64,000 nucleotides of DNA from Methanoregula sp. (lineage in GTDB: Archaea; Halobacteriota; Methanomicrobia; Methanomicrobiales; Methanospirillaceae), in contig JAJRCF010000014.1 of NCBI GenBank assembly GCA_028679075.1, forward strand, positions 1 to 64,000, given 5' to 3'. The notes below the pieces were generated by a model, which was given only the letters and a program-made list of their open reading frames with translations, made no database searches and was not told where the DNA came from. This document shows positions 11,062-63,056 of this stretch, piece after piece. How positions within the stretch are numbered: position 1 is the stretch's first letter; each line of letters begins with the position of its first letter. The position numbers and the translations under genes were made by a program.

Positions 11062-11096
11062 TTTTCGCATATACAGGAAAAGGAGAAAAAACAGCC

Positions 11097-26130: not shown

Positions 26131-26553
26131 CTAATCTTCAATTGCAATTGTCGTGAGTTTCACGGATTCGACACCCTTGTGGGCCATCAGTTTCTCGGCA
26201 AGGGCTTTGAGTTTGCTGCCGTCGCCATGGACGAGAATTACCTCAAGGCACCGCTCCTTGGTCACGTGCGAGTGGAGCGAGGCCTTGATGATCTCGTGGT
26301 ATTCGTGCTCGACCTCCACGATCGAGGAGAGGAGATTGCGCTGCTCGTGGTCGTACACCATCGTGATGACCCCCTCCCTCTCTCCCTTGACGTCCGACAT
26401 CCACTTGTAATACGTGATATACGTACGGATTGCATCGCGTATGCCTTCGGAGCGCGATGAGTAGCCACGATAGTTCAGGATTTCATCGAACCGGTCGAGC
26501 AGGTTTTTCGGAAGCGATATGCCAATCCGTGAGAGATCGTCGTCCATGGTCAT
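26131..26553 (-). CDS. nikR: NikR nickel-responsive regulator, copy 1
   Basis: A 140-residue NikR with the ribbon-helix-helix DNA-binding domain (RIGISLPKNLLDRFDEIL, RSEGIRDAIRTY) and the ACT-like nickel domain. The high-affinity nickel ligands are present: H83, H94, H96 and C102, matching E. coli H76, H87, H89 and C95 in spacing. With nickel bound, NikR represses nickel uptake genes. Differs from copy 3 (35959) at about nine positions, so these are recent duplicates. Convergent with the ABC-2 permease. Candidate targets are the TAWTAC-N14-GTAWYA sites listed below. Confidence 0.95.
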   Translation of the reverse strand: MTMDDDLSRIGISLPKNLLDRFDEILNYRGYSSRSEGIRDAIRTYITYYKWMSDVKGEREGVITMVYDHEQRNLLSSIVEVEHEYHEIIKASLHSHVTKERCLEVILVHGDGSKLKALAEKLMAHKGVESVKLTTIAIED

Positions 26554-28309: not shown

Positions 28310-28492
28310 AGTTACTGCATTACTATAAAGTTTATACTATTAATAATTCAGGCACATTTGTATTATGAAATCATATTAATTTTAAAAATGGTGTTATTAT
28401 GTTTGACCGTTACTCAACCACGCATCCGCCGGGACCCGTATGTCATCCCGGTTTTATGGCGATTCCAGAAAACCACGCCGGAGCTGATACCC
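28310..28492. promoter_or_regulatory. Divergent promoter region hxlR-like / mcrB
   Basis: AT-rich from 28320 to 28400, holding the 13-bp palindrome TATAAAGTTTATA at 28324-28336, which gives a TATA-like box on both strands, and further TATA-like stretches (ATTTTAAAAATGG near 28380). The mcrB start at 28493 has GGAG eight bases upstream. The frame of mcrB is open for 68 codons above this ATG, but that part is AT-rich and has no McrB similarity, so I treat it as leader. Confidence 0.5.
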
Positions 28493-29797
28493 ATGGCACA
28501 TTACACTGAAACCATTGACCTCTATTCTGATGATGGGAAACTGCTGAAAAGCAGCGTGCAGCTGCACCGCATCAGCCCCCTTCTGAACCCGGCTGCAAAG
28601 ACGATTGTAGACTTAACCAAGCGGACGATCAATGTCAACCTTGCCGGTATCGAGGAGGCCTTAAAGACCGCAAAACTCGGTAAGGGCCGTATCCCCGGAC
28701 GGGAACTCGACCTCCCGATTATGGAAAGAAAAGATGCCCTGATTGAGAAGATCAAATCGATGGTACAGGTTGAAGATGGCGATGACACGGACATCCAGCA
28801 GTTCAATGGCGGCAATCTCCTGCTCGTCAGAGCCCCCACGATCAGGCTCTCCGGGGCATCCACGTACGATGCAGCCATTACTGCGGTGGCTTCCGCGGTA
28901 ACTTACGCGATTGTGGATGAATTCAATATCGACGCGTTCAATGCCTCGACCGTCAAGGCGGCCGCGTGGGGCAGTTACCCGCACACGCAGGACATGGAAG
29001 GCGCTCTTGTCACCTCGATCCTCACGATTCCCCAGAACAATGAGGGGATCGGGTATGCACTGCGCAACATCAGCGTCAACCACTTCGTGATGATGACGAA
29101 CCGCAACGCCCTCCAGGGCGCTGCACTCGCGTCAACGTACGAAATGGCCGGCGTCTTTGAGATGGGCGGAGCTATCGGCCCATTCGAGCGCAACCAGCTG
29201 CTCTGTTACGCGTACCAGGGACTCAATGCCAACAACATGGTGTACGATATTGTCAGGGAGAACGGGCAGACCGGAACGGTCGGCTCCGTTGTCCAGTCCC
29301 TTGTTGACCGGGCAGTCGAGGATAGGGTCATCACGCCCGGGAAGAAAGGCGGGTATTTCCAGTTCTATGATACGAAAGATCCGATGCTATGGAATGCCTA
29401 TGTCTCGGCCGGCACGCTTGCGGCAAGTATCGTAAACTGCGGGGCCGGCAGGTTCGTGCAGGCGGTCTCGTCCACGCTCCTCTACTTCAATGACCTGATC
29501 GAGCACGAGACCGGCCTCCCCGGTGCGGACTTTGGCCGCGTGATGGGTACGGCGGTCGGGTTCTCGTTCTTCAGCCACTCGATCTATGGTGGCGGCGGCC
29601 CGGGCATCTTCAACGGTAACCACGTGGTCACCCGCCACGCGTATGGCATGGCGATCCCCTGTGTCGTTGCCGCAGCGGCCATGGATGGCGGCACCCAGAT
29701 GTTCGCACCGGAAGGGACATCCAAGATCATGGGCGAGACCTATGGGAAGATGGACGTCTTTTCTAAACCGATCCACCAGATTGCGGAGGTGGTGTGA
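28493..29797 (+). CDS. mcrB: Methyl-coenzyme M reductase beta subunit
   Basis: A 434-residue McrB, matching the family length when started at the ATG 28493 ([18 protein letters not shown]). MCR catalyses the last step of methanogenesis, methyl-CoM plus CoB to methane and heterodisulfide, as an alpha2-beta2-gamma2 cytoplasmic enzyme with nickel cofactor F430. McrB-specific stretches include [32 protein letters not shown] and [16 protein letters not shown] near the active-site channel. First gene of a B-D-G-A operon; the intergenic gap to mcrD is three bases. Confidence 0.97.
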
Positions 29798-29800
29798 GCC

Positions 29801-30301
29801 ATGAACACGATTACCACCTATCCCCAGTGCCGTATCGTGCCGATGCGCCTCCTTGGCCCGGACACGACACAGCGGCTGCTCGACCGGATTGTTAAAGTGC
29901 CAGGCATCCGCCGGATGCTCCTCAACGGCCAGAACATCCCTGCGGTCGTGCCCTATGGTCCGGCACGCGGTGCGAAGAACGAGACCCGCCTGCGGAAAAC
30001 AATCGAGATCGCCGGCAATTCTGTTGACCTCCACGTGCAGGTAGGTACCATCACGCTCGAGATCGAAGACAAGACCGTGATTGAACAGATCCGTGCGATC
30101 TGCGATGAATTTTTTGTGGATTTCCCGTGTTCTGTCCAGGAGGGGCGGTTCATGAAGTCGCAGCCGAGCCTTGTCGATTATGCAAAGTACGGCCCGGAGG
30201 CAGACCCGTCCGTGATCGGTCTTGTCGACCCGAAGCGGAAGGAGAAACCCTCCCTCATCCATCCCCTGGGCGATCGTGTCTGCGGGGGGTGCGAACTATG
30301 A
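29801..30301 (+). CDS. mcrD: Methyl-coenzyme M reductase operon protein D
   Basis: A 166-residue McrD. McrD is not a subunit of mature MCR; it binds assembly intermediates and is thought to help maturation. Recognisable by CRIVPMRLLGPDTTQRLLD at the start, MLLNGQNIPAVVPYGPARG in the middle, and the [11 protein letters not shown] ending with a Cys pair. Sits between mcrB and mcrG; its stop overlaps the mcrG start (ATGA at 30298). No mcrC follows. Confidence 0.93.
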   Translation: MNTITTYPQCRIVPMRLLGPDTTQRLLDRIVKVPGIRRMLLNGQNIPAVVPYGPARGAKNETRLRKTIEIAGNSVDLHVQVGTITLEIEDKTVIEQIRAICDEFFVDFPCSVQEGRFMKSQPSLVDYAKYGPEADPSVIGLVDPKRKEKPSLIHPLGDRVCGGCEL

Positions 30302-31065
30302 CGGCACGTTCACCCCAGTACGGGCCGGGGACTTCGGTAGTCGCGATCAACCGGCGAAAACAGATGGACCCGACGCACAAACTGACGACAATGCGGAATA
30401 TCACCGATGAAGACATCGTCCTCCTCCTCGGCCACCGGGCTCCCGGGGCGAGCTTCAAGACTATGCATCCCCCGATAACGGAACAGCAGGAACCCTCCTG
30501 CCCGATGCGGCATCTGGTGAAACCCACGGAAGGGGCAAAGCACGGCGACCGGGTCCGGTATGTCCAGTTCGCCGACTCCATGTTCAACGCCCCCTGCCAA
30601 CCTTACCAGCGGACCTATACAGAGATGTACCGCTTCCGAGGGATCGATCCCGGCACCCTGTCGGGACGGCAGATCGTTGAATGCCGCGAGAGGGACCTCG
30701 AACAGTACTGCCGGCTCCTGATCGAGACCGAGATGTTCGATCCTGCTCTTGTGAGCCTGCGGGGAGCCACCGTTCATGGCCACTCACTCCGCCTGTCAGA
30801 AGACGGTATGCAGTTCGATGCCCTCCAGCGGTGTATGCTTGGCAAGGACGGGATGGTCCGGTATGTCAAGGACCAGATCGGCCTACCCCTCAACCGGATG
30901 GTGGAGGTAGGAAAACCGCTCGACCAGAAATGGCTCAAGGAACATTCCACGATCTTCCACTGCCTTGTGGGTACGGCCCTGCGCGATGATGCCGAGTATG
31001 TCGAATACCTTCAGCGGATCCACACGCTGCGGACACGCTATGGCTTCATGCCAAGGGAGGCCTGA
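30298..31065 (+). CDS. mcrG: Methyl-coenzyme M reductase gamma subunit
   Basis: A 255-residue McrG when started at the ATG 30298, which overlaps the mcrD stop. Family motifs include [49 protein letters not shown] and [19 protein letters not shown]. The gamma subunit contributes to the coenzyme M and F430 pockets of the hexamer. The frame is open further upstream (to 30127) but that part overlaps mcrD in another frame. Followed by mcrA after five bases. Confidence 0.96.
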
Positions 31066-31070
31066 ATAAA

Positions 31071-32777
31071 ATGGCATCCGTAGAGCATTCCCAGAAACAG
31101 TTCTTAAAGGCACTCAGAGAGAAGTTCAAAGGACAGGATGTAGAATCGCAGAAGACCGAGTTCTATAAGTTCGGCGGCGTCCGCCAGTCCCCGCGGAAGC
31201 GGGAGTTCATGGAGGCAACAAAGAAAATCGAGGCGGATCGCGGGATCTCGATGTACGACCCCGAACACTGCCACCTGAACGGTATCCCGATGGGCCAGCG
31301 GCAGCTGATGACCTACGAGGTCTCGGGCACCGGCACGTTTGTCGAGGGCGACGATCTTCACTTTGTTAATAACTCTGCCATGCAGCAGATGTCTGACGAG
31401 ATCAAGCGGACGATCATCGTGGGTATGGACATTGCACACAACACCCTCCAGAAACGGCTCGGGAAGGAAGTCACCCCCCAGACCATCAACGAGTATCTCC
31501 ACATCATCAACCATGCGATGCCCGGCGGCGCTGTCGTCCAGGAGCACATGGTCGAGACCAATCCCGGTCTTGTTGACGACTGTTTTGTCAAGGTATTCAC
31601 CGGCAACGATGAAGTAGCCGATGACATCGAGCCGCAGTACCTCCTGAACATCGAGAAGCTCTTCCCAAAGAAACAGGCAGAGGCACTCAAGGCCGAGATT
31701 GGGAAGTCGATGTACCAGGCAATCCATGTCCCGACTATCGTTGTCAGGACCTGCGATGGCGGCACTACGAGCCGATGGTCTGCGATGCAGATCGGGATGT
31801 CATTCATTGCTGCGTACCGCACCTGTGCAGGAGAAGCAGCGGTTGCTGACCTCTCGTTTGCTGCAAAACATGCCGGTGTCATACAGATGGGGTCCCACCT
31901 GCCAGCCCGCAGGGCACGCGGTCCCAACGAGCCGGGAGGGATCAAGTTCGGGATGTTCTCCGATATGATCCAGGCCGACCGGAATTACCCGGACGACCCG
32001 GCCCATGCGGCCCTTGAAGTCGTGGCAGCGGGCGCAGTCCTGTTCGACCAGATCTGGCTGGGTTCCTATATGTCGGGCGGTGTCGGGTTCACCCAGTACG
32101 CAACGGCTGCGTACACGGACAATATTCTCGACGATTTCACGTACTATGGTATGGATTATATCAAGGACAAGTACTGGTACAATTATCACGAGCCGGGAGC
32201 AGACAAGGTGATTAGACCTACGCAGGATATTGTCAACGATATTGCGACCGAAGTAACACTCTACAGCATGGAGCAGTACGAGAAGTTCCCGACCTTAATG
32301 GAGGACTACTTCGGCGGCTCCCAGCGGGCCGCCGTAATGGCAGCGGCAGCGGGCCTGACCACTTCGATTGCCACGGGCAACTCGAATGCCGGCCTGAACG
32401 CGTGGTACCTTTCGATGATTGTCCACAAGGACGGCTGGTCACGCCTCGGGTTCTTTGGCTATGACCTGCAGGACCAGTGTGGATCCGCGAATTCGCTGTC
32501 GATGGAACCGGACCGTGGCGCAATGGGCGAACTGAGGGGTCCGAACTACCCGAACTATGCGATGAACGTGGGCCACCAGGGAGAGTACGCGGCAATTGTT
32601 GCCAGTGCCCACCTTGGACGGGCCGATGCGTTCTGTTACGATCCTCGGGTGAAGATCACCTTTGCCGATCCCTCGCTGAAGTTCGACTTCTCGCAGCCCC
32701 GTAAGGAGTTTGCAAAAGGCGCGATCCGGGAGTTCGAAGCCGCGGGCGAACGGTCGCTGATCATGCCGGCACGGTAA
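31071..32777 (+). CDS. mcrA: Methyl-coenzyme M reductase alpha subunit
   Basis: A 568-residue McrA. The standard diagnostic segment [20 protein letters not shown] is present, with active-site Y343 (M. marburgensis Tyr333). [11 protein letters not shown] holds Gly463, Asp468 and Cys470, equivalent to the thioglycine (445), didehydroaspartate (450) and S-methylcysteine (452) positions. [11 protein letters not shown] contains the arginine region that is C-methylated in known enzymes. No modification enzymes are encoded nearby. The B-D-G-A order without mcrC matches the isoenzyme called MRT (mrtBDGA) in other methanogens, so this may be an MCR II-type copy; I cannot decide from this window alone. 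Confidence 0.97.
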
Positions 32778-34912: not shown

Positions 34913-35374
34913 TTACTGATGTGACGGCTGTACGCGCTTGAGAAGGGGATCGCCTATCGGTATTGTAGTGATCTTCACCGTCTCAATTCCATTCAGAGAC
35001 GTCAACATTTTTACAAGAGCCTTGATTTGTACAGTACTACCCTGAATAACAAAAAGATCAAGTTGTCGGTCCTGACTGATATTTTTCCGAAGTGAAATCC
35101 TGATGATATCCTGGTATTCGTACCGGATTTCATAAATGGAGGTCAGGAGATTCTCCTTCTTGCAATCATAAAGAATGGTAATGACACCCATTTTGTCGTT
35201 GGTCCTGTTGTCAAACCACTGATTATTGATATTGAAGAACTGAATAGCATCGTGGATCCCTTTGGACCGGGAAGTATATCCCCGATGTATGAGAATTTCA
35301 TCGAGTTGTTCGATCATGGATGCAGGAAGAGTGACTCCAAACCTGGAGGTGTGATTATCCGGATCTGATGTCAT
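34913..35374 (-). CDS. NikR paralogue lacking all four nickel ligands
   Basis: A 153-residue protein with the NikR layout: ribbon-helix-helix domain (SRFGVTLPASMIEQLDEIL, RSKGIHDAI) and ACT-like domain (MGVITILYD, KALVKMLTSLNGIETVKITTIPIGD). At the ligand positions of copies 1 and 3 (His, His, His, Cys) it has Y85, R96, N98 and Q104, so the high-affinity square-planar nickel site is gone. It also carries a 10-residue C-terminal tail. It lies directly upstream of cbiM in the same direction, 160 bp apart. Either a nickel-independent or differently liganded regulator, or a protein that modulates true NikR by forming mixed oligomers. The DNA-contacting beta strand also differs. Confidence 0.88.
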   Translation of the reverse strand: MTSDPDNHTSRFGVTLPASMIEQLDEILIHRGYTSRSKGIHDAIQFFNINNQWFDNRTNDKMGVITILYDCKKENLLTSIYEIRYEYQDIIRISLRKNISQDRQLDLFVIQGSTVQIKALVKMLTSLNGIETVKITTIPIGDPLLKRVQPSHQ

Positions 35375-35958: not shown

Positions 35959-36381
35959 ATGACCATGGATGACGACCTATCCCGGATCGGCATATCGCTG
36001 CCGAAAAACCTGCTCGACCGGTTCGACGAAATCCTCAACTACCGCGGCTACTCCTCGCGGTCGGAAGGTATACGCGATGCGATCCGGACATACATTACTT
36101 ATTACAAGTGGATGTCTGACGTCAAGGGGGCGCGGGAAGGTGTCATTACGATGGTGTACGACCATGAGCAGCGCAACCTTCTCTCTTCCATCACAGAGAT
36201 TGAACACGATTATCATGAGGTTATCAAGGCCTCGCTCCACTCCCATGTCACCCATGAGCGGTGCCTGGAAGTAATTCTTGTTCACGGGGACGGCTCCCAG
36301 CTCAAGGCTCTTGCCGAGAAATTGATGTCCCACAAGGGTGTCGAGTCAGTCAAACTTACAACAATCGCCATCGAAGAATAA
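35959..36381 (+). CDS. nikR: NikR nickel-responsive regulator, copy 3
   Basis: A 140-residue NikR about 94% identical to copy 1, with all nickel ligands (H83, H94, H96, C102). The first 57 residues, which contact DNA, are identical to copy 1, so both should recognise the same operators. Differences lie in the nickel domain (for example A58, T79, H99, S123). A pair of GTAATATTCC / GGATATTAC segments flanks the region just upstream of the ATG. With copy 1 it brackets the mcr and cbiM genes on opposite strands. Confidence 0.95.
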   Translation: MTMDDDLSRIGISLPKNLLDRFDEILNYRGYSSRSEGIRDAIRTYITYYKWMSDVKGAREGVITMVYDHEQRNLLSSITEIEHDYHEVIKASLHSHVTHERCLEVILVHGDGSQLKALAEKLMSHKGVESVKLTTIAIEE

Positions 36382-47720: not shown

Positions 47721-47845
47721 ATTTTCGGATGTCTGATGGTATTACAATTTTATAAAATTATTTTGGAAAATGTATACTAAATGCATACGTTTTTAGGTTA
47801 TTTTCATAACATCTATAAACTTATAAATGAATTACGAGTACTGAG

Positions 47846-47871
47846 TAATACGTAGAGAAAAAAACGTATTA
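47846..47871 (+). promoter_or_regulatory. NikR-type operator before the system 2 binding protein
   Basis: TAATAC-N14-GTATTA; the inverted repeat extends inward to TAATACGT / ACGTATTA. It lies 108 bp before the start of the binding-protein gene in an AT-rich gap, suggesting a second nickel-controlled promoter within system 2. Confidence 0.65.
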
Positions 47872-47978
47872 ATCCTGATTGATGTATTTCGGTTATCGAA
47901 TGAATCGAAAGGATCTATTCGAGATGCAGCGACACTCAATCCTTTCAGTCTGAATCGGGAGTAAAATCCAAAGGTGAT

Positions 47979-51930: not shown

Positions 51931-52362
51931 TCATGATATACGGAAAAGACACTCAGCCGGCGCCTTGTACCACATAAGTGCGATCTCCTCAATCGCTTTC
52001 CAGTACAGCGGCGATTCTGCCGAGGGAAAAGTTATCTCGTTCGGGCAGAGGCAGAGCGTTTTTCCATCACAGGTAAATATGCAAAAAATATCCTTTGAGG
52101 GAATAAGGGATATCTTCCTTCGCCCGAACGAACACCCGCTTCCCATCTGGATACCGTCAGCGATACAGGACTTGGGCGGTGTATCCGGGCAATGGACAAC
52201 AGCATCCATCTCGGGGGAATTGCTGAAATATTCTCTTGCAAACCGCCCCATGCGGTAACCGAGGACAATATACGGGCCCAGGTGCCCGTGGAATTTGATG
52301 AGATCAGGTACCGAATATTCAGTATCTTCAAGTCGGGTGATCCTGTGTGAGGTGGATACCAT
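51931..52362 (-). CDS. FmdE-domain protein
   Basis: A 143-residue protein with the FmdE signature: LIKFHGHLGPYIVLGYRMG, then a GIQMGSGCSFGRR segment with the conserved Cys and aromatic residues (DGIQMGSGCSFG), and a Cys-rich C-terminal part (IFCIFTCDGKTLCLC). FmdE was named from formylmethanofuran dehydrogenase operons, but stand-alone FmdE proteins occur next to iron-complex/corrinoid transporters and their role is unknown. The Cys residues could bind a metal. It is the last gene of the minus-strand Fec-type operon, 21 bp after the third binding-protein gene. Confidence 0.85.
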   Translation of the reverse strand: MVSTSHRITRLEDTEYSVPDLIKFHGHLGPYIVLGYRMGRFAREYFSNSPEMDAVVHCPDTPPKSCIADGIQMGSGCSFGRRKISLIPSKDIFCIFTCDGKTLCLCPNEITFPSAESPLYWKAIEEIALMWYKAPAECLFRIS

Positions 52363-52383
52363 AGTGTTTGCCTGCCGGAAAAA

Positions 52384-53643
52384 TTATTTTACCGGTACCT
52401 TCAATGAATCATTCTCCGTCCAGTCAAACCACTGGACGCCACGAAGTACTTTTGCTTTGGTATCATCGACACCATACAGGCTCTTATAGAATTCAAGGCT
52501 CCACTGGCCGAGGTCGATATCGCTGAACCGGTCCGGGTATGCTGCGCTGGCAATAACCATCACATCGAGCGGGTACTCGAGCCGGCGGTCGCAGTTGCAG
52601 GGTGTGTATGGCATGGAATAGACACGCCTCTCCTTGATTGCCTTGAGTTCTCTCAGGTTCTGGTAATAGGGAGCATTGTACAGTTCTTCTGCAGGATGGT
52701 ACCCATATGCCGTTGAGAGGATAATGACATCCGGGTTGAGTGCCAGGATCTGCTCTGCACTGATGGTCTTGAAATATGCATCTTCCTGGTACGCATTTTT
52801 TGCATTCGCTATATCCTCGATGAAATACGATTCGATGGTGTCGGTGCCGTACACGACACCGGCACCACCAGCCTGCCGGGCTGTAGGCGATAACCCGAGG
52901 ATCAATACCTTCGGTTTATCCCCCTCTGGAATGTCCTGCGTCCGGTTTTTAATCAGATTGACCTGTTCTTCAAGGAACTGCGCAGTTATTCCTGCCTGTT
53001 TTTCTTTGCCGAAGACCGATCCGATAATTTTTATCTCATCGGATAATCCGCTCATGTTGGGGCTGTCATAGAAGTGAGGGCTCTTTACGACAACAAGAGG
53101 AATCCCAAGGGAACTGAGTGTCTCGATACTTTTAGGGATTGTCTCATCGTTCGGATATCGGAGGGTGCAGTCCCCGAGTCGCATAATGATCACGTCAGGT
53201 TTGAGGCTTGCGACTGACTCATAATTGATTGCCTGGCCGGACTGGCCGACCAGCGTCAGGTTGGCAAGCCGCGGATTAAGGTATCTGACAGTATTCATGC
53301 CGTTAGAATACGTGAGATTGGGACCGTCTGTCTGGGGATAGCTGAATTTATAGGAAAGCTGGACACAGGTCGAACCGACTCCGACCTGTTTGTCCGATTC
53401 GTCGAGAATCGCCATCATCCCTTCGACAAGCCCGTCGCTGATGGCAAGCACCCTCTGCGGTGATGCAGGAACCTGAACGGCAACACCCCGGCTGTCAACC
53501 ACGGTCTTGTATCCTGCTGCAGGGGTCTCCTGCTTTATGGTTGATTTTTCTGATTGCGCTACCTGCTGGGTGCATCCAGCGCAAAGGATTGCTCCGATGA
53601 TGACAATAAATGCAAATGGCCATAGTTTATTCATAATCGACAT
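52384..53643 (-). CDS. FecB-like substrate-binding lipoprotein 3 of the tandem set
   Basis: A 419-residue class III binding protein with lipobox (IIGAILCAGC, Cys24) and a DSRGVAVQVPASPQRVLAISD start to the first lobe. It shares with its two neighbours four conserved cysteines beyond the lipobox: C93 (GSTCV), C159 (GDCTL), C349 and C351 (PCNCDRRLEYP). The connecting helix and ETLSSLGIPLVVV are typical of FecB/BtuF proteins. It should deliver a metal complex to the FecCD permease encoded upstream in the operon. The start may also be the ATG at 53634. Confidence 0.88.
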   Translation of the reverse strand: MSIMNKLWPFAFIVIIGAILCAGCTQQVAQSEKSTIKQETPAAGYKTVVDSRGVAVQVPASPQRVLAISDGLVEGMMAILDESDKQVGVGSTCVQLSYKFSYPQTDGPNLTYSNGMNTVRYLNPRLANLTLVGQSGQAINYESVASLKPDVIIMRLGDCTLRYPNDETIPKSIETLSSLGIPLVVVKSPHFYDSPNMSGLSDEIKIIGSVFGKEKQAGITAQFLEEQVNLIKNRTQDIPEGDKPKVLILGLSPTARQAGGAGVVYGTDTIESYFIEDIANAKNAYQEDAYFKTISAEQILALNPDVIILSTAYGYHPAEELYNAPYYQNLRELKAIKERRVYSMPYTPCNCDRRLEYPLDVMVIASAAYPDRFSDIDLGQWSLEFYKSLYGVDDTKAKVLRGVQWFDWTENDSLKVPVK

Positions 53644-53718
53644 TCCGTTTCTCTCTCATTCTCGCTGGTCTTTTCCCGATTCTCATAAAAAAGGATATTT
53701 CTCCCACTCATCCGGGTT

Positions 53719-54957
53719 TCAGGACTTCACCGTCCAGTCCATCCACTGAACGGAACGGAGATCTTTTGCCGTAGTCTCGTTCACGCCATACAGGTTCTCA
53801 TAGAACTGGAGGAGCCATTCCGAGAGCTCGACATCGGCGAACTTATCCGGGTATGCGGTCTTTGCGATCACCATGACGTCAATCGGGTACTCCAGCCTTT
53901 TGCCGCAGTTGCAGGGAGTCCACGGGAGTGCCGAGACCTGCCTGTTTTTTACCGCAGACAGTTCCTGCAGGTTCTGGTAGTAGGGGGCTTCGTAGAGTTC
54001 CATCGGCGGGTGGTACCCGTTTGCGGTGCAAAGGACAATCCTGTCAGGGTTGTTGGCAAGTATCTGCTCGGCGCTCAGGGTCTTGAACGTCGCAGCCTCC
54101 TCATTGTAGGAGTTCTTTGCATTCACCAGGTCCTCTATGAAGAAGGATTCGATGGTGCCCCGGCCGAATACCTGCCCTGCCCCGCCCTGGCTCCGCGCCG
54201 TGGGGGAGAGGCCGAGGACCAGCACGCTTGGTTTCTGCGCATCGGGAATCTCCCGTGTCCTCTGCTTTATCATATTAACCTGCCCTTCAAGGTAGTCACT
54301 CATCTTCTTGGCCTCTGTCTCCTTGCCAAACACCTCTCCAAGGATACGTATCTCGTCAGTTATCCCGGATACGGTCGCGGTCTTGTACGCGTTCGGTCCG
54401 TATGTCACAACGAGGGGGATGTTCAGGGACTCGATGGTCGAGATGGTCTTCTTCACGTTCTCGTCATCGGGATACCGCAATGTGCAGTCGCCGAGACGGA
54501 GGATCACGACATCGGGTTTGAGCCCGGCGAGAGTCTCATAATTGATGGCAACGCTCGATTCGCCTATGCGGGGGAGTGTCCCAATCTTCGGGTACAGGTA
54601 GAGCACCGGGTTCATCCCACGCACATAGGTGACATTCTTACCTTTGACCGAGGGGAAATCGTACGAGAAGTTCCTCTGGATACAACTTGAACCAACCCCG
54701 ACAAGCGTGTCCTGTACTCCGAAGCGTATCATAGTGCCTTCCACAAGCCCGTCGCTGATGGTAACGACCCTTTTGATATCGGCCGGGACTTTCACCGCAA
54801 CGCCCCTGCTGTCGATAACTGTCTTATACTCTGGCGTTGACGCATCCCCTTTTGCCACACCCGTTTTTTCTCCCTGCGCTACCTGCTGGGGGCATCCTAC
54901 ACAGAGGATTGCACCGATGAGAATAATCGTAAACACGAACAGCCACTTTTTTTGCAT
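53719..54957 (-). CDS. FecB-like substrate-binding lipoprotein 2 of the tandem set
   Basis: A 412-residue protein when started at ATG 54957 (MQKKWLFVFTIILIGAILCV); seven further codons upstream are possible. Lipobox Cys22. It is clearly paralogous to the flanking binding proteins throughout, with C92 (GSSCI), C158 (GDCTL) and the Cys pair in WTPCNCGKRLEYP. Also conserved are ARSQGGAGQVFG and NPDRIVLCTANGYHPP. Three paralogous receptors for one transporter suggest a range of related ligands or different affinities. Confidence 0.9.
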   Translation of the reverse strand: MQKKWLFVFTIILIGAILCVGCPQQVAQGEKTGVAKGDASTPEYKTVIDSRGVAVKVPADIKRVVTISDGLVEGTMIRFGVQDTLVGVGSSCIQRNFSYDFPSVKGKNVTYVRGMNPVLYLYPKIGTLPRIGESSVAINYETLAGLKPDVVILRLGDCTLRYPDDENVKKTISTIESLNIPLVVTYGPNAYKTATVSGITDEIRILGEVFGKETEAKKMSDYLEGQVNMIKQRTREIPDAQKPSVLVLGLSPTARSQGGAGQVFGRGTIESFFIEDLVNAKNSYNEEAATFKTLSAEQILANNPDRIVLCTANGYHPPMELYEAPYYQNLQELSAVKNRQVSALPWTPCNCGKRLEYPIDVMVIAKTAYPDKFADVELSEWLLQFYENLYGVNETTAKDLRSVQWMDWTVKS

Positions 54958-55025
54958 AACACACCACTTTCCACACATTCCTCGTTCATTTCCTGAAATG
55001 AAATCCTCTTTCTCTCCCTGTGGAC

Positions 55026-56243
55026 TTAACCCTCAACCGTCCAGTCCATCCACTGGGCGGTTCGCAACTCTTTTGCCTTCTCGTCATTTACCCCATAGAC
55101 ATTTTTATAGAATTCAAGGAGCCACTCCTCCAGTTTAACATCTGAAAACCGGTCCGGGTACGTTGTCTTTGCAATCACCATTACGTCAATCGGGTACTCA
55201 AGGCGCATGGCACAGTTGCATGGTGACCAGGGAAGGGCAGATACTCTCTTGTTTTTAACGGCATTGAGGTCCCGCAGCGGTTTGTAATAGGTGGCATCGT
55301 ATAATTCTCCCGGGGGGTGATAGCCATTCGACGTGCACAGGACTATTGCGTCGGGGTTCATCACCAGTAACTGTTCTGTATTGACAAGCAGCCTTCCCTC
55401 GGTCCGGTAGGCGTTCTTCGCATTGACGATATTCTCGATGATGTATGATTCGGTCGTTTTCAGGCCATGTACATTTCCTGCGCCTCCCTGGGCACGGATT
55501 TGCGGCGACAACCCGAGGCTTATGACCGACTGTTTCTGGGATTCGGGGATGTCCTTTGTCCTGTTCTGGACAAATGCCAGCTGTGATTCAAGATACTGGG
55601 CAATACGTTCTGCTTTTTCTTCTTTTTCAAAAAGCCGCCCGAGAATTCGTATCTCATCGGAGATCTGTTTTGGATTTGGCTGGTCATAACAGTTCGGGCT
55701 GTACAGGACAACAACCGGAATTCCCAGGGACTCAATTCTCTTAATTGTCTGGGGAGTCTTTTCATCATCCTTTTTCTGAAGGGCACAGTCGCCGATCCTA
55801 AGTATGACAACATCCGGTTTGAGTCCCGCCAGACTCTCATAATTCATGGCAGTACCTGATTTGATTACCGCAGGCATGCCGGCCACATTGGGCGAGAGGA
55901 CTTTGGCAATGTCCCGGCCACCGGACCCATTGGTAAACCCTCCATTATCCAGAGGATAGGAGTACGTGAAGTCCTGCGGAATGCACGATGAACCAATCCC
56001 GATAATTTTGTCATCAACGCCAAGTGCAGCCATGGTCCCTTCGATCATCGCATCCGAGACGGTCACGACCCGGGTGATATTCTTCGGGACCGTGACCTGG
56101 ACTCCCCGTGAATCGGTAATGGTCCGGGTAGTCTCCTGTACGGACGGCACCGTTCCGGTTTTTTCCTGAGTGCTCATGCACCCTGCCCCGAACACTGATA
56201 TTACCAGTAAAATAATGAGAAAACAAAGAAAAATGCGCTTCAT
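55026..56243 (-). CDS. FecB-like substrate-binding lipoprotein 1 of the tandem set
   Basis: A 405-residue receptor with lipobox (VISVFGAGC, Cys22), starting directly after the methyltransferase stop with no gap. Conserved cysteines: C87 (GSSCI), C153 (GDCAL) and the WSPCNCAMRLEYP pair. RAQGGAGNVHG and NPDAIVLCTSNGYHPP match the other two. Divergence among the three is substantial outside these motifs, so the duplication is not recent. Confidence 0.9.
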   Translation of the reverse strand: MKRIFLCFLIILLVISVFGAGCMSTQEKTGTVPSVQETTRTITDSRGVQVTVPKNITRVVTVSDAMIEGTMAALGVDDKIIGIGSSCIPQDFTYSYPLDNGGFTNGSGGRDIAKVLSPNVAGMPAVIKSGTAMNYESLAGLKPDVVILRIGDCALQKKDDEKTPQTIKRIESLGIPVVVLYSPNCYDQPNPKQISDEIRILGRLFEKEEKAERIAQYLESQLAFVQNRTKDIPESQKQSVISLGLSPQIRAQGGAGNVHGLKTTESYIIENIVNAKNAYRTEGRLLVNTEQLLVMNPDAIVLCTSNGYHPPGELYDATYYKPLRDLNAVKNKRVSALPWSPCNCAMRLEYPIDVMVIAKTTYPDRFSDVKLEEWLLEFYKNVYGVNDEKAKELRTAQWMDWTVEG

Positions 56244-57077
56244 TTAAACCTCCCACCAGAACTGGACCCCGGTTGTTTTTCCAGGCAGGGTGAGCTGCCC
56301 GTTTTTCGGGATCATTACCTCTTCAAGATAGTGCCGAAGTACTGCATCCTGCTTAGGTGTCGATATGGCGAACTGCTCCCTGAGATCACCAATCGCAGAG
56401 GTGACATCAGGGTAAAGCTTGGCATGATCAAGTTCTCCCGAGCTCATATTCGGGGTAATCCCCATGGACCAGAGGACATTGAAGAGGATATCGGCTTTTG
56501 GGCCGGGGGTATACACTTTCCCATGCAGTTCCGGCCAGAGGTCCACCATCGGTCTCTCCCAGGATGTGACCCCTCCAAACCAGAATAAAAAGATCTGTCT
56601 GGATGCCACGGCTGTCATCTTTTCTATGGCTTTCCGAATGTCGGGCATCCCCAGCGAGTGGGAGGCAAAGACGATATCATAGGGTCCATCGAGATCGGTT
56701 GCCGGGTCGATATCCTCCCATCGCTTCTGGATCACTGTTAGGTTTGAGATCCCTTGCCTGGCGGCATATTCTTTCATCACTTCAGCCATACCAGTGGCGG
56801 GTTCAACGGCTGTTACCTGTCCGGCAAGACCTGCGATAGGTACTGCAAGGGTTCCCGGGCCGGCACCGATATCCAAGACTTTACTCATGGGACCCGGCCG
56901 TAACCGTTCAATCACCCTGTTGATTCGATCAGGGTTTTTATCAGACTGGGCCAGAAATTCTTCTGCCTTCTTTTTTGATTCCCATACCGTGGAACATTCG
57001 CCTCTTCCTCGCGTTTCAACGTTCTTCTCATAGAGGCCCTTCCAGACCTCGTTCCAGTCAATTGATTGGTAATCCAT
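56244..57077 (-). CDS. Class I SAM-dependent methyltransferase within the Fec-type operon
   Basis: A 277-residue methyltransferase with motif I VLDIGAGPGTLAVPIAG, acidic strand-2 end VTAVEPATGM, and motif II/III YDIVFASHSLGM. An N-terminal helical segment (DWNEVWKGLYEKN) and a C-terminal Trp-rich part (FWWEV end, LFWFGGVTSWERP) suggest a small-molecule substrate. Between the ATPase gene (32 bp) and binding-protein gene 1 (0 bp), so co-expression is certain. It could methylate the imported ligand, or make a chelator. Confidence 0.85.
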   Translation of the reverse strand: MDYQSIDWNEVWKGLYEKNVETRGRGECSTVWESKKKAEEFLAQSDKNPDRINRVIERLRPGPMSKVLDIGAGPGTLAVPIAGLAGQVTAVEPATGMAEVMKEYAARQGISNLTVIQKRWEDIDPATDLDGPYDIVFASHSLGMPDIRKAIEKMTAVASRQIFLFWFGGVTSWERPMVDLWPELHGKVYTPGPKADILFNVLWSMGITPNMSSGELDHAKLYPDVTSAIGDLREQFAISTPKQDAVLRHYLEEVMIPKNGQLTLPGKTTGVQFWWEV

Positions 57078-57109
57078 CGTCTTTCATCTCATCAGATCTT
57101 GGTATCTGT

Positions 57110-57937
57110 TCATTTGCGGGAGTGATCCGGGTGTTCGGCCACAATGCCTGAATTGCACTGTTCCTTTTTTTCAATAATACACCGGGGCATCACCATCCTC
57201 ACGCCATCGGTGGACCGTACCGAGCAGGTATCTTTGTAAATCAGGTCCAGGATCTCATTGTTGATCACATCACGGGGATGGCCGTTTGCGACAACACCCG
57301 AATTTGATATGACGATCACCCGGTCGCAGAACCATGCCACATGGTTGGGATCATGACTGCAGGCAAGGATGGTCTTTCCCTCTTCCGTGATGCTTTGCAT
57401 GATCTCCCAGATCTTCATCTGGTTGTGAAAATCGAGGGTTGACGTGGGTTCATCGAGGAACATGATCGGCGTGTCCTGCGCAATCGCACGGGCGATCAGG
57501 ACCATCTGGCGCTGTCCTCCCGAGAGCTGGTTGTAGGGACGGTCAGCAAGATCGGAAATCTCCAGCCGGTCCAGGGCGTTGAGCGCAATCTCCTTGTCCT
57601 TTCGCCGTACCCCAAAGAATCCCCCCAGGTGCGGTGTTCTCCCCATCAGGACAACTTCCCGTACAAGGTAGGGGAACGGGGGTTTATGCTCCTGCGGTAC
57701 ATATGAGACGATCTTTGCGAGGTCTTCCACCTTCTTCTTCGATACATCTTCTCCATTGATATGGACCGTTCCCTTGTGGGCAGCAAGGAAACGGAGGCAG
57801 CACTTAAAGAGGGTGGTCTTCCCACAACCGTTTGGCCCGAAAAGGCCGCACAGTTCTCCCTGTTCCACTGAGAATGAGACCCCGGAAAGGACCGGAAAAT
57901 TCTGATAGGTATAATGGATATCGTTCACGGAAAGCAT
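57110..57937 (-). CDS. FecE/BtuD-type ABC importer ATPase
   Basis: A 275-residue ATPase: Walker A GPNGCGKTT (34-42), Q-loop YVPQEHKPPFPYLV, signature LSGGQRQMVLIARAIAQ, Walker B IMFLDEPTSTLD, H-loop CSHDPNH. The final 25 residues carry His and Cys residues (MVMPRCIIEKKEQCNSGIVAEHPDHS region), more than usual for the family. It follows the permease by four bases. Confidence 0.92.
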   Translation of the reverse strand: MLSVNDIHYTYQNFPVLSGVSFSVEQGELCGLFGPNGCGKTTLFKCCLRFLAAHKGTVHINGEDVSKKKVEDLAKIVSYVPQEHKPPFPYLVREVVLMGRTPHLGGFFGVRRKDKEIALNALDRLEISDLADRPYNQLSGGQRQMVLIARAIAQDTPIMFLDEPTSTLDFHNQMKIWEIMQSITEEGKTILACSHDPNHVAWFCDRVIVISNSGVVANGHPRDVINNEILDLIYKDTCSVRSTDGVRMVMPRCIIEKKEQCNSGIVAEHPDHSRK

Positions 57938-57941
57938 AGTA

Positions 57942-59021
57942 TCACCCGAAAATGATCCGTCCCTTGTTTCTCAGGAGGTAACAGAGATATGGGGCACCAA
58001 GGATTGAAGCGATGATGCCCACGGGAATTTCTGCATTCGTGAGTGTCCGTGCCATGGTGTCGCAGATTATCAGATAAATTCCGCCCATCATGAAGGATGC
58101 CGGGATCACGTACCGGTTGTCCGGCCCGAGAAGAATTCTTGAGGCATGGGGCATCATCAGGCCGACCCAGGCAATGATGCCCACAAGGGAAACGGCAAAT
58201 GCCGTGACGGCAGTTGCAATACTGATGACAATGAACTTGTATCGCTCCGGGTTCACACCCAGTGTCCGTGCCTCATCATCACCCATGGAAAGAATATTGA
58301 GCTTCCATCCCAGCGCCCAGAGAATGATGAAGCCGACAATTACAACCGGGGCAATGACCCGGACATCATTCCATGTGGCATAGTAAAATCCCCCCATCAT
58401 CCAGAAAACAATCTCTCGTAAGGCCGCATCGGTGGAGAGGTATTTCAGGAGTGAGACCAGTGCTGCAAATATTGATCCGACAATAACCCCGGCGAGAATC
58501 AGGGTGACAACCGGGGTCTCTCCCCGCACCCGGGCAAGGAGGTATGCGACCGCGACAGCAATGGACCCGAATGCAAACGCGGATAACTGGAGCGAGAAGA
58601 AAATTGCAGGAAATACGATGCCGAGTGCTGCTCCGAATGCGGCCCCGGAAGAAACGCCGAGGATATATGGTTCTACGAGCGGGTTCCTGAAGACCCCCTG
58701 AAAAACCGCCCCGGCTATTGCAAGAGCTCCCCCAACAAACAGGGTGAGCAATATCCGTGGTGCTCGTATGTCCCAGATGATTGTGTTGTTGAGTTTTTCG
58801 ATTGCCGATACGTCACCGAACGTGACGTGGGTAAACACCGTCTGGTAGACATCCAGGACCGTGAACCCGTATTTGCCCATAACAACCGCTGTCAGGGCCG
58901 AGATAAACATGATTACCGCAATAATAAGAAGGATCAGTATCTTCTTGTATTCTGAAAATCCTCCGACATCGTCATAGCCCATCCTTTCCAGCAGTCGTTT
59001 TAACCGTGTTGTCTCTGTCAT
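57942..59021 (-). CDS. FecCD/BtuC-type ABC importer permease
   Basis: A 359-residue permease of the FecCD family with about ten helices: DIRAPRILLTLFVGGALAIAG, the RNPLVEPYILGVSSGAAFGA core, GIIAWVGLMMPHASRILLG and the terminal GAPYLCYLLRNKGRIIFG. Its start overlaps the methyltransferase stop by four bases. With the ATPase and three receptors it forms a complete class II importer for a metal complex. Confidence 0.92.
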   Translation of the reverse strand: MTETTRLKRLLERMGYDDVGGFSEYKKILILLIIAVIMFISALTAVVMGKYGFTVLDVYQTVFTHVTFGDVSAIEKLNNTIIWDIRAPRILLTLFVGGALAIAGAVFQGVFRNPLVEPYILGVSSGAAFGAALGIVFPAIFFSLQLSAFAFGSIAVAVAYLLARVRGETPVVTLILAGVIVGSIFAALVSLLKYLSTDAALREIVFWMMGGFYYATWNDVRVIAPVVIVGFIILWALGWKLNILSMGDDEARTLGVNPERYKFIVISIATAVTAFAVSLVGIIAWVGLMMPHASRILLGPDNRYVIPASFMMGGIYLIICDTMARTLTNAEIPVGIIASILGAPYLCYLLRNKGRIIFG

Positions 59022-60064
59022 CTTGCTACTTTCCTTGAAACAATAATCCGCGACGGGTGGAACGGCGTATTTAAATCGTGCACTTTTTCGATCTCAAAAC
59101 CATTGGATTCCAGGGTCCTGGAAAATTCTGCAGAAGAATAGACGCGATCGGTGTCTTCTGCAAGGGAGAACATGAGATCGAAATATACCGCTGTCGCATC
59201 CCGGACAATATCGTCGATATGCCAGTGTTTTGAGATGAATATCCCGTCATTATTGAGGCTGGAATGTACTCTGCCGAGGATGGCATCCATCTGCGTTTTT
59301 TCCCGGTATAGTACATCGGATGCAAAGACCATGTCATACCCTGGACCAAGATTGTCCTTGGTAAAGTCTCCGGGAATGGCGGTGACCCGGTCCGCATGAT
59401 ACGTTGATATCATTGGTGAGGTTACCTGTTTGACTACCGAGGGGAGATCCAGGACTGTTGAAAAAAGACCCGGGTTCATCTGGGTAAAGGCAATCGAATA
59501 AAGACCATGGCCTCCACCAAGGTCAAGCATGGTTTTTACGTTCCGGAATCCCGGATAGTTTTTCATGAACTCGATTGTCTTTTGCAGACTTCCCCGTACC
59601 GCACCTTCGGCCATTGCGTGGACAAACCCTGCATCAAAGACTCCATGAAGGCCATCTTCGTACCCCTCAGGACCGTTGCGGATGATCTCGGACAGGTGGC
59701 TCCACCGGTCATTCCGTGTGGTGTTCCAGAGGTTGATGAGATTTCCCTGGTAAAAGGGGGATTTTTTCCGGAAAAAAGCTCTCGAACTGTCTGTTGGTGC
59801 AAAATGTCCGTCAATCTGTTGCATGAAGCCGGAGGCTACAAGTGCATTGCAGAATTTGCCCGTGATCTTTTTTTGCAGACCCAGACGATCAGCAAGTTCA
59901 TCTGACGTTTTCGGCTCATCGAGCGCGTCAAAAACTCCCAGTTCCACTGCTGTTGCAACAATCCGATATGTTTCAACAGCGTGTGCAAGCTCCTGAAGCT
60001 TTCCGATATCTTCGGGTGGTAATAATTCAAGATTGGGGTTGAATGTTATTATTGGATCATCCAT
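59018..60064 (-). CDS. O-methyltransferase-like SAM-dependent methyltransferase with winged-helix dimerisation domain
   Basis: A 348-residue protein of the acetylserotonin O-methyltransferase-like family: an N-terminal winged-helix dimerisation domain (ELGVFDALDEPKTSDELADR, FCNALVASGFMQQ) and a C-terminal SAM domain with MLDLGGGHGLYSIAFTQMNP, GDFTKDNLGPGYDMVFASDV and a C-terminal IIVSRKV. It is the first gene of the operon and lies 12 bp from a NikR-like site, suggesting nickel-dependent expression. Relatives in other organisms methylate small molecules, including tetrapyrrole precursors (BchU-type C-20 methyltransferase), which would fit a tetrapyrrole ligand; this is inference. Confidence 0.88.
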   Translation of the reverse strand: MDDPIITFNPNLELLPPEDIGKLQELAHAVETYRIVATAVELGVFDALDEPKTSDELADRLGLQKKITGKFCNALVASGFMQQIDGHFAPTDSSRAFFRKKSPFYQGNLINLWNTTRNDRWSHLSEIIRNGPEGYEDGLHGVFDAGFVHAMAEGAVRGSLQKTIEFMKNYPGFRNVKTMLDLGGGHGLYSIAFTQMNPGLFSTVLDLPSVVKQVTSPMISTYHADRVTAIPGDFTKDNLGPGYDMVFASDVLYREKTQMDAILGRVHSSLNNDGIFISKHWHIDDIVRDATAVYFDLMFSLAEDTDRVYSSAEFSRTLESNGFEIEKVHDLNTPFHPSRIIVSRKVAR

Positions 60065-60075
60065 GGATTAGTTGT

Positions 60076-60101
60076 TATTACATAATAAAATAAAAGTATT
60101 A
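60076..60101 (-). promoter_or_regulatory. NikR-type operator of the Fec/methyltransferase operon
   Basis: TATTAC-N14-GTATTA, 11 bp upstream of the ATG of the first gene (60064). Same half-sites and exactly the same spacing as at cbiM and nickel/peptide system 2. Its position near the start codon implies a nearly leaderless transcript with the site over the promoter. Confidence 0.65.
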
Positions 60102-60194: not shown

Positions 60195-61175
60195 TTACGC
60201 CCCTCCCACGAAAATAAGGAGTATGACCATAATTACCGTTGCGCCCTGTAACATGCAAAAATCAATAGCGGAGACCTTGAAACCAAGGGTCTTTCCGAAT
60301 AATGCGACATTTGTCGGGAATCCCGACTTGATCTGGCCAATGCCAAGGTGAATCGCCCGGGAGATAACATAGATCAGGAGACACTGTAATACTGTCAGAT
60401 CCTCCGCAACAGCGATCGTCCCTATTGCAGCGATGGCTGCAACCTGGCTCATAAATGCCGCGGCATAGACGATAATGGATGAAGCCGGCAGGTTAAGGGA
60501 CGAAAGGAGCGGATTCAGGAACGAAGCCAGCATGTCCCGGACCCCGATGTTGAATAACAGGATTATAACCGCGCCTGTCGGGATTAGGACGATGGCGATC
60601 TCATAAAAACCCTTTACACTATCGATAAAACAGTGTTTCAGGGTTCCTATCCATGTCATGTTTTCCCGTGGCGGCGAAGGTGCAGGATCGGGATTCAGTG
60701 AAGGGTTTTTTTCAGTTCCTGTATCGGGGTCAAAGAGGATCCGCCCGGCAATAATTCCTACAATGGCGATCCCAAAACAGATCAGGAATTCAACCGCGAG
60801 AATGCTTCCCCCGATCCATATACCAAAGACTGAAAGAGCCACGGGTGCAAGGAAGAAAGTGACGCTGTTGATACTTTTCGGGAAATAAGCGACTAACACC
60901 GTTATGATAATTTCCTTATCCTTAAGTTTTTTTTCCTTATAGTTTTCCGACATCATGCCCAGCGCTGAATAGGAATTCAGGAGATAAAAGGAAAAAATCG
61001 CGGAGCATTTTTTTGGCAGGTGGGCAACCCGGGCGATGTATGACATCGGTAACCCGATCAGGTCAAGATACGGCGATGCCTTGATCAGGTTTGCAATAAA
61101 GAAGCCTAAGAAGATATACGGCAGCGTAAGCCAGAAAAAATTCAGTATCTGCTGGAGAACATTCAGGAGATCCAT
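60195..61175 (-). CDS. Gate-domain (nucleoside-recognition type) membrane protein
   Basis: A 326-residue membrane protein, started at ATG 61175 (MDLLNVLQQILNFFWLTL); the longer frame to 61292 adds a non-hydrophobic tail that looks non-coding. It has eight or so helices and two Gate-type repeats: YFPKSINSVTFFLAPVALSVFG in the first half and VTIIGTIAVAEDLTVLQC-like segments in the second (AAIAAIGTIAVAEDLTVLQ). Gate-domain proteins include permeases for nucleosides and parts of FeoB. Substrate unknown. Divergent from the DUF4198-CooC-CooT cassette and downstream of none. Confidence 0.75.
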   Translation of the reverse strand: MDLLNVLQQILNFFWLTLPYIFLGFFIANLIKASPYLDLIGLPMSYIARVAHLPKKCSAIFSFYLLNSYSALGMMSENYKEKKLKDKEIIITVLVAYFPKSINSVTFFLAPVALSVFGIWIGGSILAVEFLICFGIAIVGIIAGRILFDPDTGTEKNPSLNPDPAPSPPRENMTWIGTLKHCFIDSVKGFYEIAIVLIPTGAVIILLFNIGVRDMLASFLNPLLSSLNLPASSIIVYAAAFMSQVAAIAAIGTIAVAEDLTVLQCLLIYVISRAIHLGIGQIKSGFPTNVALFGKTLGFKVSAIDFCMLQGATVIMVILLIFVGGA

Positions 61176-61263
61176 GAAGGCATCATCATTTGTTTGAGCT
61201 GGTGTTCCTGCTCTTTTGGAATCTGGCAATCGTGATATTGATGATCTGAAGCAGCAGGACAAA

Positions 61264-61361
61264 CTATCCTGACTGCGGATATATCCCTGCACCGCAGGAT
61301 AGTATTTGCCAACCGGGGCCGTTCAACAACATCTGCATCGGTGTCAGGATACTCCCTGACA
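61264..61361. other. Structured segment in the divergent gap before the DUF4198 gene
   Basis: Two inverted repeats: CTATCCTG / CAGGATAG (61264-61271 and 61295-61302), enclosing the palindrome GGATATATCC, and TGTCAGG-ATACTC-CCTGACA (61342-61361). They sit between the Gate-domain gene and the DUF4198 gene with no coding frame. They may be RNA hairpins in a leader of the Gate-domain gene or a small RNA. No known riboswitch class recognised. The remaining gap (61370-61545) is AT-rich promoter sequence with a TATA-like ATATTATTA. Confidence 0.4.
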
Positions 61362-61545: not shown

Positions 61546-62256
61546 ATGGATAAAATGGTACTGATGGTATTCGGCCACGAGATATGGCTCGAGGGCCAGA
61601 ATGGAAAGGGAACAAAAGCTGACATCAAACTGATGTACGGCCATAACATGAAGACCGACGGGCACGTTGACGCAAAAAGAATCTCCTCGGTTGTGTATGG
61701 TCCCGGCAGGAAAAAGATTGTTCCCGAGATCAAATCGAAGACGGATCATCATATCGTAACATTTACCGGAGAAAAACCGGGATATTATATTCCGGTTGTT
61801 GACCTGTCACCCTTGGTGATATCGAAAACAAAGAAGGATGAGTACAAACAGGGCCCGCGGAAGATGTATAAGGATATTGTCTATGCGGGTGCATTCCACC
61901 AGATGGCAAAAAAGATCATCCCGATCGGTGATGTTGGTGCTTACAAGGCCCGGCACGTCCATGGCATCCTCGATATCCTGCCGGAAAGCCCGCAGCTTGC
62001 CAAGGGTAAGGACATCAGCATGACTCTTCTCTATGAAGGGAAGCCCGTTCGCGGGGTAACCGTGAAGGCGATCTCAAAAGAAGAAGGAAAAGACCTGGCA
62101 ACCGGTGTAACTGACGCGAAAGGCATCGTCAAATTCCCCATCACGCGCAAGGGCACGTGGATGTTTATTGCACGGCACAATGATCCATCAAAAGCGGTAA
62201 AAGACGAATACGATGAGACCGTGTTCGTGTCCACGCTGGTGATGGAGACTACCTGA
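61546..62256 (+). CDS. DUF4198 (NikK-like) protein without a signal peptide
   Basis: A 236-residue protein of the DUF4198 family, which in bacteria is associated with nickel/cobalt uptake as secreted or membrane-tethered NikK-type proteins. The metal-associated start motif GHEIWLEG is at residues 10-17, and HNMKTDGHVDAKR, YKARHVHGILDIL and the C-terminal beta domain (LYEGKPVRGVTVKAIS) fit the family. Unlike typical members it has no signal peptide: the domain begins within ten residues of the only ATG. Thus it may be cytoplasmic and serve as a metal carrier for CooC and CooT, encoded just downstream (2 bp to CooC). Confidence 0.75.
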   Translation: MDKMVLMVFGHEIWLEGQNGKGTKADIKLMYGHNMKTDGHVDAKRISSVVYGPGRKKIVPEIKSKTDHHIVTFTGEKPGYYIPVVDLSPLVISKTKKDEYKQGPRKMYKDIVYAGAFHQMAKKIIPIGDVGAYKARHVHGILDILPESPQLAKGKDISMTLLYEGKPVRGVTVKAISKEEGKDLATGVTDAKGIVKFPITRKGTWMFIARHNDPSKAVKDEYDETVFVSTLVMETT

Positions 62257-62258
62257 AC

Positions 62259-63056
62259 ATGATTAAAATTATTGCAACGGGGAAAGGGGGCGCGGGAAAG
62301 ACAACTGTGATAGCTACCCTGTCCCGTCTCCTTTCCCGGAGGGGGTACCGGGTCCTTGCCATCGATACCGATCCCAGCATGAACCTTGCAATGTCCCTTG
62401 GTATCCCTTTTACGACGATCCGGACCCTTGCTGAGGACAAGATTGGTATACGTGAACAGCTCTTCGGGAATGATTCAGACGATGATCATCCTCATTATCA
62501 TCCCCCAAACGTCGATATTGAAGAAATCCTGAGGCAGTACGAAGTATATGGGTATGATGACGTGCGGGTCGTTGTTATGGGAACCATACCCTATGGTGGT
62601 GCCGGGTGTATCTGTTCCTCAATATCACTCGTAAAACTCCTGATCGAACACATCGCTTCCCAGACCGACCGGTATGATATTGTTATTGTGGATTCCCAGG
62701 CCGGTTCGGAGATCCTCGGGAGGGGTCTTGCCATTGATTACGACTACAATCTTGTCATCACCGAGGCATTCCCGAAATCAATGGAAGTTGCACGGCATGT
62801 CATGAAACTCGCCGTTGACCTCCGTATTAAAAGGCAGGTTGTTATCGTGAACAAGGTAAAAAACGGGAACGAGGTCGGAAAAGTGATACAGGAATTGTCC
62901 TTAATCGGGGATACTGCGATTCCCGTCCGTTACGATGAACAGGTTGCCGAGGCCGATCGGAACGGGCAGCTTATTCTTGATACTGCCCCGGAATCCCCTG
63001 TGGTCAGCGATATCCGGCGGATTATGGATATGGTACAGGAATCCTGTCAATCGTAA
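62259..63056 (+). CDS. cooC: CooC-type nickel-insertion ATPase
   Basis: A 265-residue MinD-type ATPase with the deviant Walker A GKGGAGKT (8-15), a His-rich segment (H77, H79, H81 within DSDDDHPHYHPP) and the CooC hallmark C-x-C (C117, C119 in GAGCICSS), which binds nickel or zinc at the dimer interface. CooC loads nickel into carbon monoxide dehydrogenase; in methanogens the target is CODH/acetyl-CoA synthase. No CODH genes are in this window. Forms an operon with DUF4198 and CooT. Confidence 0.9.
   Translation: MIKIIATGKGGAGKTTVIATLSRLLSRRGYRVLAIDTDPSMNLAMSLGIPFTTIRTLAEDKIGIREQLFGNDSDDDHPHYHPPNVDIEEILRQYEVYGYDDVRVVVMGTIPYGGAGCICSSISLVKLLIEHIASQTDRYDIVIVDSQAGSEILGRGLAIDYDYNLVITEAFPKSMEVARHVMKLAVDLRIKRQVVIVNKVKNGNEVGKVIQELSLIGDTAIPVRYDEQVAEADRNGQLILDTAPESPVVSDIRRIMDMVQESCQS

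Follow-up and report, generated by a model that had tools for sequence, protein, structure and literature searches.

Nickel import by a Fec-type ABC pump is already described in Helicobacter pylori, in which NiuB1/NiuB2-NiuDE (CeuE/FecDE) is a NikR-linked importer with more than one receptor per pump and a NikR-target promoter, and the consulted part of that source mentions no FmdE, CooC or methyltransferase partners (PMC5140060). Because of NiuBDE, nickel transport by such a pump is not new, and an earlier, sequence-only reading of the locus studied here left this system out of account when it took siderophores, heme or cobalamin as the normal cargo of Fec importers (PMC5140060). The H. pylori receptor CeuE binds Ni(II) and Ni-His (PDB 4inp, 4ls3). 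The nikMNQO and nikKMLQO systems (PMC545781) and the methanogen NikMNQO (PMC10617489) resemble the present locus in operator and regulator, but they are ECF-type transporters, with proteins unrelated to the importer described below. Haemophilus influenzae MolABC (HI1470-1472) has the same type II architecture; its permease is the closest one with a solved structure, and its receptor ranks among the top fold matches. Its cargo is molybdate, unlike the nickel proposed here, and we know of no NikR operator or FmdE associated with MolABC.

The window, that is, the whole 64,000-nucleotide stretch of Methanoregula sp. DNA analysed here, contains eight genes that all lie on the minus strand and run from 60064 to 51931. 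The first is MT1, an O-methyltransferase-type SAM methyltransferase with a dimerisation domain (59018-60064; Pfam Methyltransf_2 and Dimerisation), followed by a FecCD permease (57942-59021; Pfam FecCD, 308.8 bits), a FecE-type ATPase (57110-57937; Pfam ABC_tran, 118 bits) and MT2, a small-molecule class I methyltransferase (56244-57077; Pfam Methyltransf_25). Three receptor lipoproteins, SBP1 (55026-56243), SBP2 (53719-54978) and SBP3 (52384-53643), with Pfam Peripla_BP_2 scores of 53-82 bits, precede the last gene, which encodes an FmdE-domain protein of the short form (51931-52362; 62.3 bits against a PF02663 gathering cut-off of 22.9). All parts of a type II (FecCD/BtuCD) ABC importer are thus present, the permease, the ATPase and the receptors each scoring above the Pfam cut-off. 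The intergenic gaps, in order from MT1, are −4, 4, 32, 0, 47, 75 and 21 bp. Gene coordinates and Pfam assignments bear out the single-strand, eight-gene operon of the sequence-only reading and its bound of about 75 bp on the gaps (the largest measures 75 bp), whereas the 'several overlaps' that it listed reduce to one true overlap of 4 bp and one abutting pair. Among named relatives, the permease comes closest to that of Methanoregula sp. PtaB.Bin085 (87% identity). Upstream of the operon lie a Gate-domain permease (60195-61292, minus strand), a DUF4198 protein (61546-62256, plus strand) and a CooC-like ATPase with a CxC motif (62259-63056, plus strand), an order that is also kept in a sister Methanoregula locus (L021).

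A literature search returned no described system of this exact eight-gene composition, as had been supposed from the sequence. The gene-order comparison that had been proposed recovered a FecCD-FecE-MT2-SBP core in many methanogens, often with a CooC-like ATPase, and FmdE lies within one operon with the importer core in many bacteria.

A NikR-like operator, GTAATACTTTTATTTTATTATGTAATAA, is located at 60102-60075, ahead of MT1, with 10 nt between the site and the ATG, where the sequence-only reading had placed such a site. It is a palindrome, GTAATAC-N14-GTAATAA, that departs at 2 positions from the consensus GTRTTAC-N14-GTAAYAC used in the operator searches. This consensus matches the published delta-proteobacterial NikR signal, GTGTTAC-N13/14-GTAACAC, of which an everted form is also known (PMC545781). 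Sites with 2 mismatches are not enriched genome-wide (21 vs. 30 for a reversed control pattern), and therefore the Fec site by itself is weak evidence; nor were convergent palindromes over whole loci enriched compared to palindromes with shuffled arms, and the pattern GTATTA-N13-17-TAATAC had no match in the 64-kb window. Because these counts show no enrichment, the argument depends on where the sites lie, on their conservation and on co-occurrence with NikR.

With respect to location, this genome has its best matches at C25:15701 (0 mismatches) and, with 1 mismatch each, at C14:34771 and C14:45729. The sites C25:15701 and C14:34771 stand a short distance upstream of cbiM/nikM genes, a second kind of importer gene present here beside the Fec operon, whereas C14:45729 is upstream of a nik-type operon. 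A site with 2 mismatches (C6:55988) lies 15 bp before a third cbiM; for each of the three cbiM genes at which the genome has the motif, it stands 12-17 bp upstream. Given that the best matches fall at three cbiM genes, a nik-type operon and the Fec operon, and that such sites recur at a number of orthologous promoters, the Fec site is more than chance. Three nikR genes are present in the window, around the mcr operon (26131-26553, 34913-35374 and 35959-36381); the first scores 198 bits against a profile cut-off of 111 and is nearly identical to the third. The mcr operon itself (28388-32777) is part of a contig dense with nickel genes (three Nik-type operons, CbiM, three NikR and CfbA). Other NikR-like sites in the window are an everted one without mismatches at 5389-5415, about 70 bp before the ORF at 5485 and ahead of DUF3344 surface-protein genes, one with 2 mismatches at 3554-3580 that precedes a DUF3344 gene (1846-3426), and an everted one with 1 mismatch at 47845-47872 that precedes a NikA-like gene (47979); DUF3344 proteins may be members of the nickel regulon.

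Conservation was assessed in 24 orthologue-carrying genomes, in which a scan at no more than 1 mismatch gave 0-4 matches per genome. In the sister Methanoregula (L021/G019), where MT1 is absent from the locus, a 1-mismatch site precedes FecCD at the Fec promoter, and among the three matches in that genome another lies at cbiM. The only two matches in the 2.7 Mb of genome G119 are found about 22 bp before cbiM and 42 bp before FecCD; one of two matches in G169 lies about 43 bp before FecCD, and in G160 one match is at cbiM. No recognisable operator was found upstream of the close archaeal orthologues L003, L005, L104 and L122, and several orthologues have 3-mismatch sites near −70. Within the archaeal subclade, control by NikR thus exists but does not extend to all members. 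The orthologue itself, at E 1e-110, occurs in 25 of 232 genomes of the class and in very few Methanoregula, a patchy distribution that is consistent with horizontal transfer or repeated loss.

The window permease belongs to a supported 79-row clade (100/97) that includes homologues from Desulfovibrionaceae, Deferribacterota, Burkholderiales and others, and the NikR-controlled homologues fall in this same clade. In Mailhella, Mucispirillum and Desulfovibrio, permease and receptor share an operon, usually together with FmdE, that immediately follows a NikR operator with a perfect or nearly perfect sequence. Gene order varies, with FmdE-SBP-FecCD-FecE in Mucispirillum and SBP-FecCD-FecE-FmdE in most Mailhella. 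Among Mailhella, Mucispirillum, Desulfovibrio, Deferribacterales and Methanosarcina, the distance from operator to first gene is 6-45 bp and the operators have 0-2 mismatches. When all loci are counted, pattern matches number 24 in the 4 kb upstream of FecCD, some of these sites being counted under two patterns, vs. 3 in an equal length downstream. NikR is encoded in 15 of the 15 operator-bearing genomes compared to 2 of 10 without the operator (hypergeometric p = 4 × 10−5, a value that ignores kinship, several rows being near relatives). Two Burkholderiales genomes that encode NikR have no consensus site; a GTGGCAT-N14-GTGCTAT-like element common to both is no more than suggestive. Downstream of the Fec genes, a Bacteroidetes homologue (L072:12101-15531) has a TonB-dependent receptor and a His-rich DUF4625 protein, and NikR was not found in its genome.

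Taken together, the comparative evidence supports well the nickel control of the operon that had been proposed, and we consider it likely that the operon encodes a type II (Fec-type) ABC importer of Ni2+ or a small nickel chelate that is repressed by NikR when nickel is plentiful. Since this importer family recurs, together with its NikR switch, in further methanogens and among gut bacteria, it is probably a nickel uptake system that has so far gone unrecognised. Against this reading stand the 2 mismatches of the window site itself and the four close archaeal orthologues without a recognisable operator. Absence of the operator from some orthologues would also be expected of an importer of iron-siderophore, cobalt or corrinoid that is controlled by NikR in some lineages only, with nickel as the signal rather than the cargo, and the Fec-type family and the general likeness of the receptor fold to iron-chelate receptors fit such a cargo. 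We regard this alternative as unlikely, given that archaea and bacteria alike have the operator, that its occurrence follows that of NikR, and that nickel genes accompany the importer. Furthermore, the NCBIfam cut-offs rule out membership in the known siderophore, heme or B12 equivalogs (for example BtuC, 285 of 461 bits; FecE, 209 of 375; IsdE, 39 of 299), the FecE-type ATPase falling below every NCBIfam equivalog cut-off.

The genomes of the bacterial carriers also bear on F430 or another nickel tetrapyrrole, which the sequence-only reading had put forward as a cargo. NiFe hydrogenase is encoded in 11 of 11 operator-bearing bacterial genomes, CbiM is absent from 8 of these 11, and MCR was found in 0 of 21 bacterial carrier genomes, including all 11 with the operator. 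The family is thus not confined to F430 users, a point against F430 being the cargo that all members have in common. The large subunits of the NiFe hydrogenases of G040-G043, G045 and G046 each contain one in-frame TGA, and these are probably selenocysteine enzymes. For the window itself, scavenging of F430, Ni-sirohydrochlorin or a breakdown product, with processing by the methyltransferases, would fit the mcr, CobN-like, ChlI/D-like and CfbA genes on the same contig, the heme and cobalamin cargoes of related importers, and the weak similarity of MT2 to CbiT as well as its match by fold to ChlM, among many others. However, with NikR-controlled members in bacteria that lack MCR, the heme and B12 equivalog cut-offs missed, and nearest receptor folds that are not heme receptors, we hold a nickel tetrapyrrole to be quite improbable. 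A second Fec-type importer in the window (FecE, 16167-16952; FecCD, 16956-18128; a separate Fec receptor gene, 10791-12206) adjoins the ChlI/D-like (18189-20138) and CobN-like (20394-24200) genes.

The receptors carry four cysteines at corresponding positions (C87, C153, C342 and C344 in SBP1; C99, C165, C356 and C358 in SBP2; C93, C159, C349 and C351 in SBP3). In an alignment of 101 homologues, C99-C356 is the top non-local covarying pair in SBP2 numbering (rank 3 of 65,341 pairs) and C165-C358 is the sixth (rank 9 of 65,341), both linking the N-terminal with the C-terminal lobe. We read these positions as facing each other in the ligand cleft, where the cysteine pairs could form a nickel thiolate site; interlobe disulfides are an alternative reading. 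All window receptors have C/C/C/C at the four positions, whereas most bacterial receptors under NikR control have S/C/M/C or S/T/M/A, and W/Y/W types occur in archaeal receptors with divergent transcription from FecCD. Because the operator-rich bacterial clade has S and M in place of C at two cleft positions and is mostly without MT2, the cargo could differ between subclades.

The AF2 model of SBP2 (pLDDT 92) matches MolA (second-ranked), iron-chelate receptors and the Ni-binding CeuE of H. pylori. The many iron-chelate receptors among these matches count against nickel, as does the permease HI1471, which belongs to a molybdate importer. The receptors are only remotely related to those of the H. 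pylori system, with a profile match (E 1.8e-9) over the C-terminal part only and 16% identity by fold, and orthology to CeuE/NiuB is not supported. The window importer appears to represent a lineage separate from NiuBDE, similar in plan and set apart by its receptors, partners and taxonomic range.

FmdE takes its name from the operon of the Mo-formylmethanofuran dehydrogenase. This name, together with HI1471, the MolA match (a similarity generic for the class) and a MoeA-like FmdE fusion next to one Mailhella operon, would suit a MolABC-type molybdate or tungstate importer with FmdE as the molybdenum/tungsten partner. Such a cargo is very improbable, however, considering the NikR operators and the co-occurrence with NikR, the Nik-type and CooC-like neighbours, and a Cys-rich putative cleft that would be unusual for oxyanion binding. 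The fusion in question (L079:6113-7918; MoeA-like by eye) is divergent from an FmdE-SBP-FecCD-FecE operon with a NikR operator. Compared to the FmdE family (PF02663), the window protein keeps the HGH motif and the SC and GC cysteines but lacks the C-terminal zinc ribbon and is encoded in a metal-import operon. A short FmdE with 41% identity heads an apparent Znu/ABC-3-type metal importer operon in Methanoculleus sediminis (L027, 16470-19495), and with its presence in both Fec and Znu/ABC-3-type operons, FmdE seems to accompany metal importers in general. A literature search for FmdE with nickel transport returned nothing relevant.

CooC is the nickel-insertion ATPase of CODH. ATPases that we take to be CooC-like on the strength of a motif adjoin the Fec-type importer in methanogens; they occur in 16 archaeal loci of the importer family, nearly all with the CxC motif EGCACPMG. 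Unlike these, the window copy lies outside the operon, is divergent and is separated by other genes. NikABCDE-type genes adjoin the Fec genes in three loci (L077, L037 and L063). Just downstream of the window (L102:363-7321, equivalent to C14:64363-71321) lies a third Nik-type ABC operon with two MT2-like methyltransferases and a CfbA nickelochelatase, and therefore methyltransferases accompany Nik-type and Fec-type importers alike here. The AF2 model of MT2 (pLDDT 93) matched only generic small-molecule methyltransferases in a fold search, and the methyltransferases may act on a chelator.

Under the nickel-importer explanation, NikR would leave the operator when nickel is low, allowing the pump and the receptors to be made. 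The three membrane-anchored receptors would capture nickel outside the cell, probably in the interlobe cleft with its two facing cysteine pairs, and would hand it to a single FecCD/FecE pump, with FecCD acting as a homodimer. Inside the cell, FmdE is a candidate metal acceptor or chaperone, and the most likely task of the two methyltransferases would be to make or alter an organic chelator from which nickel is released or to which it is bound; both roles are speculative. Nickel as the cargo and nickel-dependent repression are what we infer from the comparisons above. A more specific version, in which a dedicated methanogen nickelophore, made by the cell or scavenged, delivers nickel to the four-cysteine interlobe site and the chelator is then stripped or recycled in the cell by FmdE and the two methyltransferases, seems to us rather unlikely; if true, archaea would have their first nickelophore system, and FmdE-domain proteins would gain a role in metal import. 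More broadly, a second NikR-controlled importer family common to methanogens, sulfate reducers and the gut bacteria Mucispirillum and Mailhella would mean that many 'iron-siderophore' transporters should be reannotated, and FmdE-domain proteins and importer-linked methyltransferases would gain a testable role.
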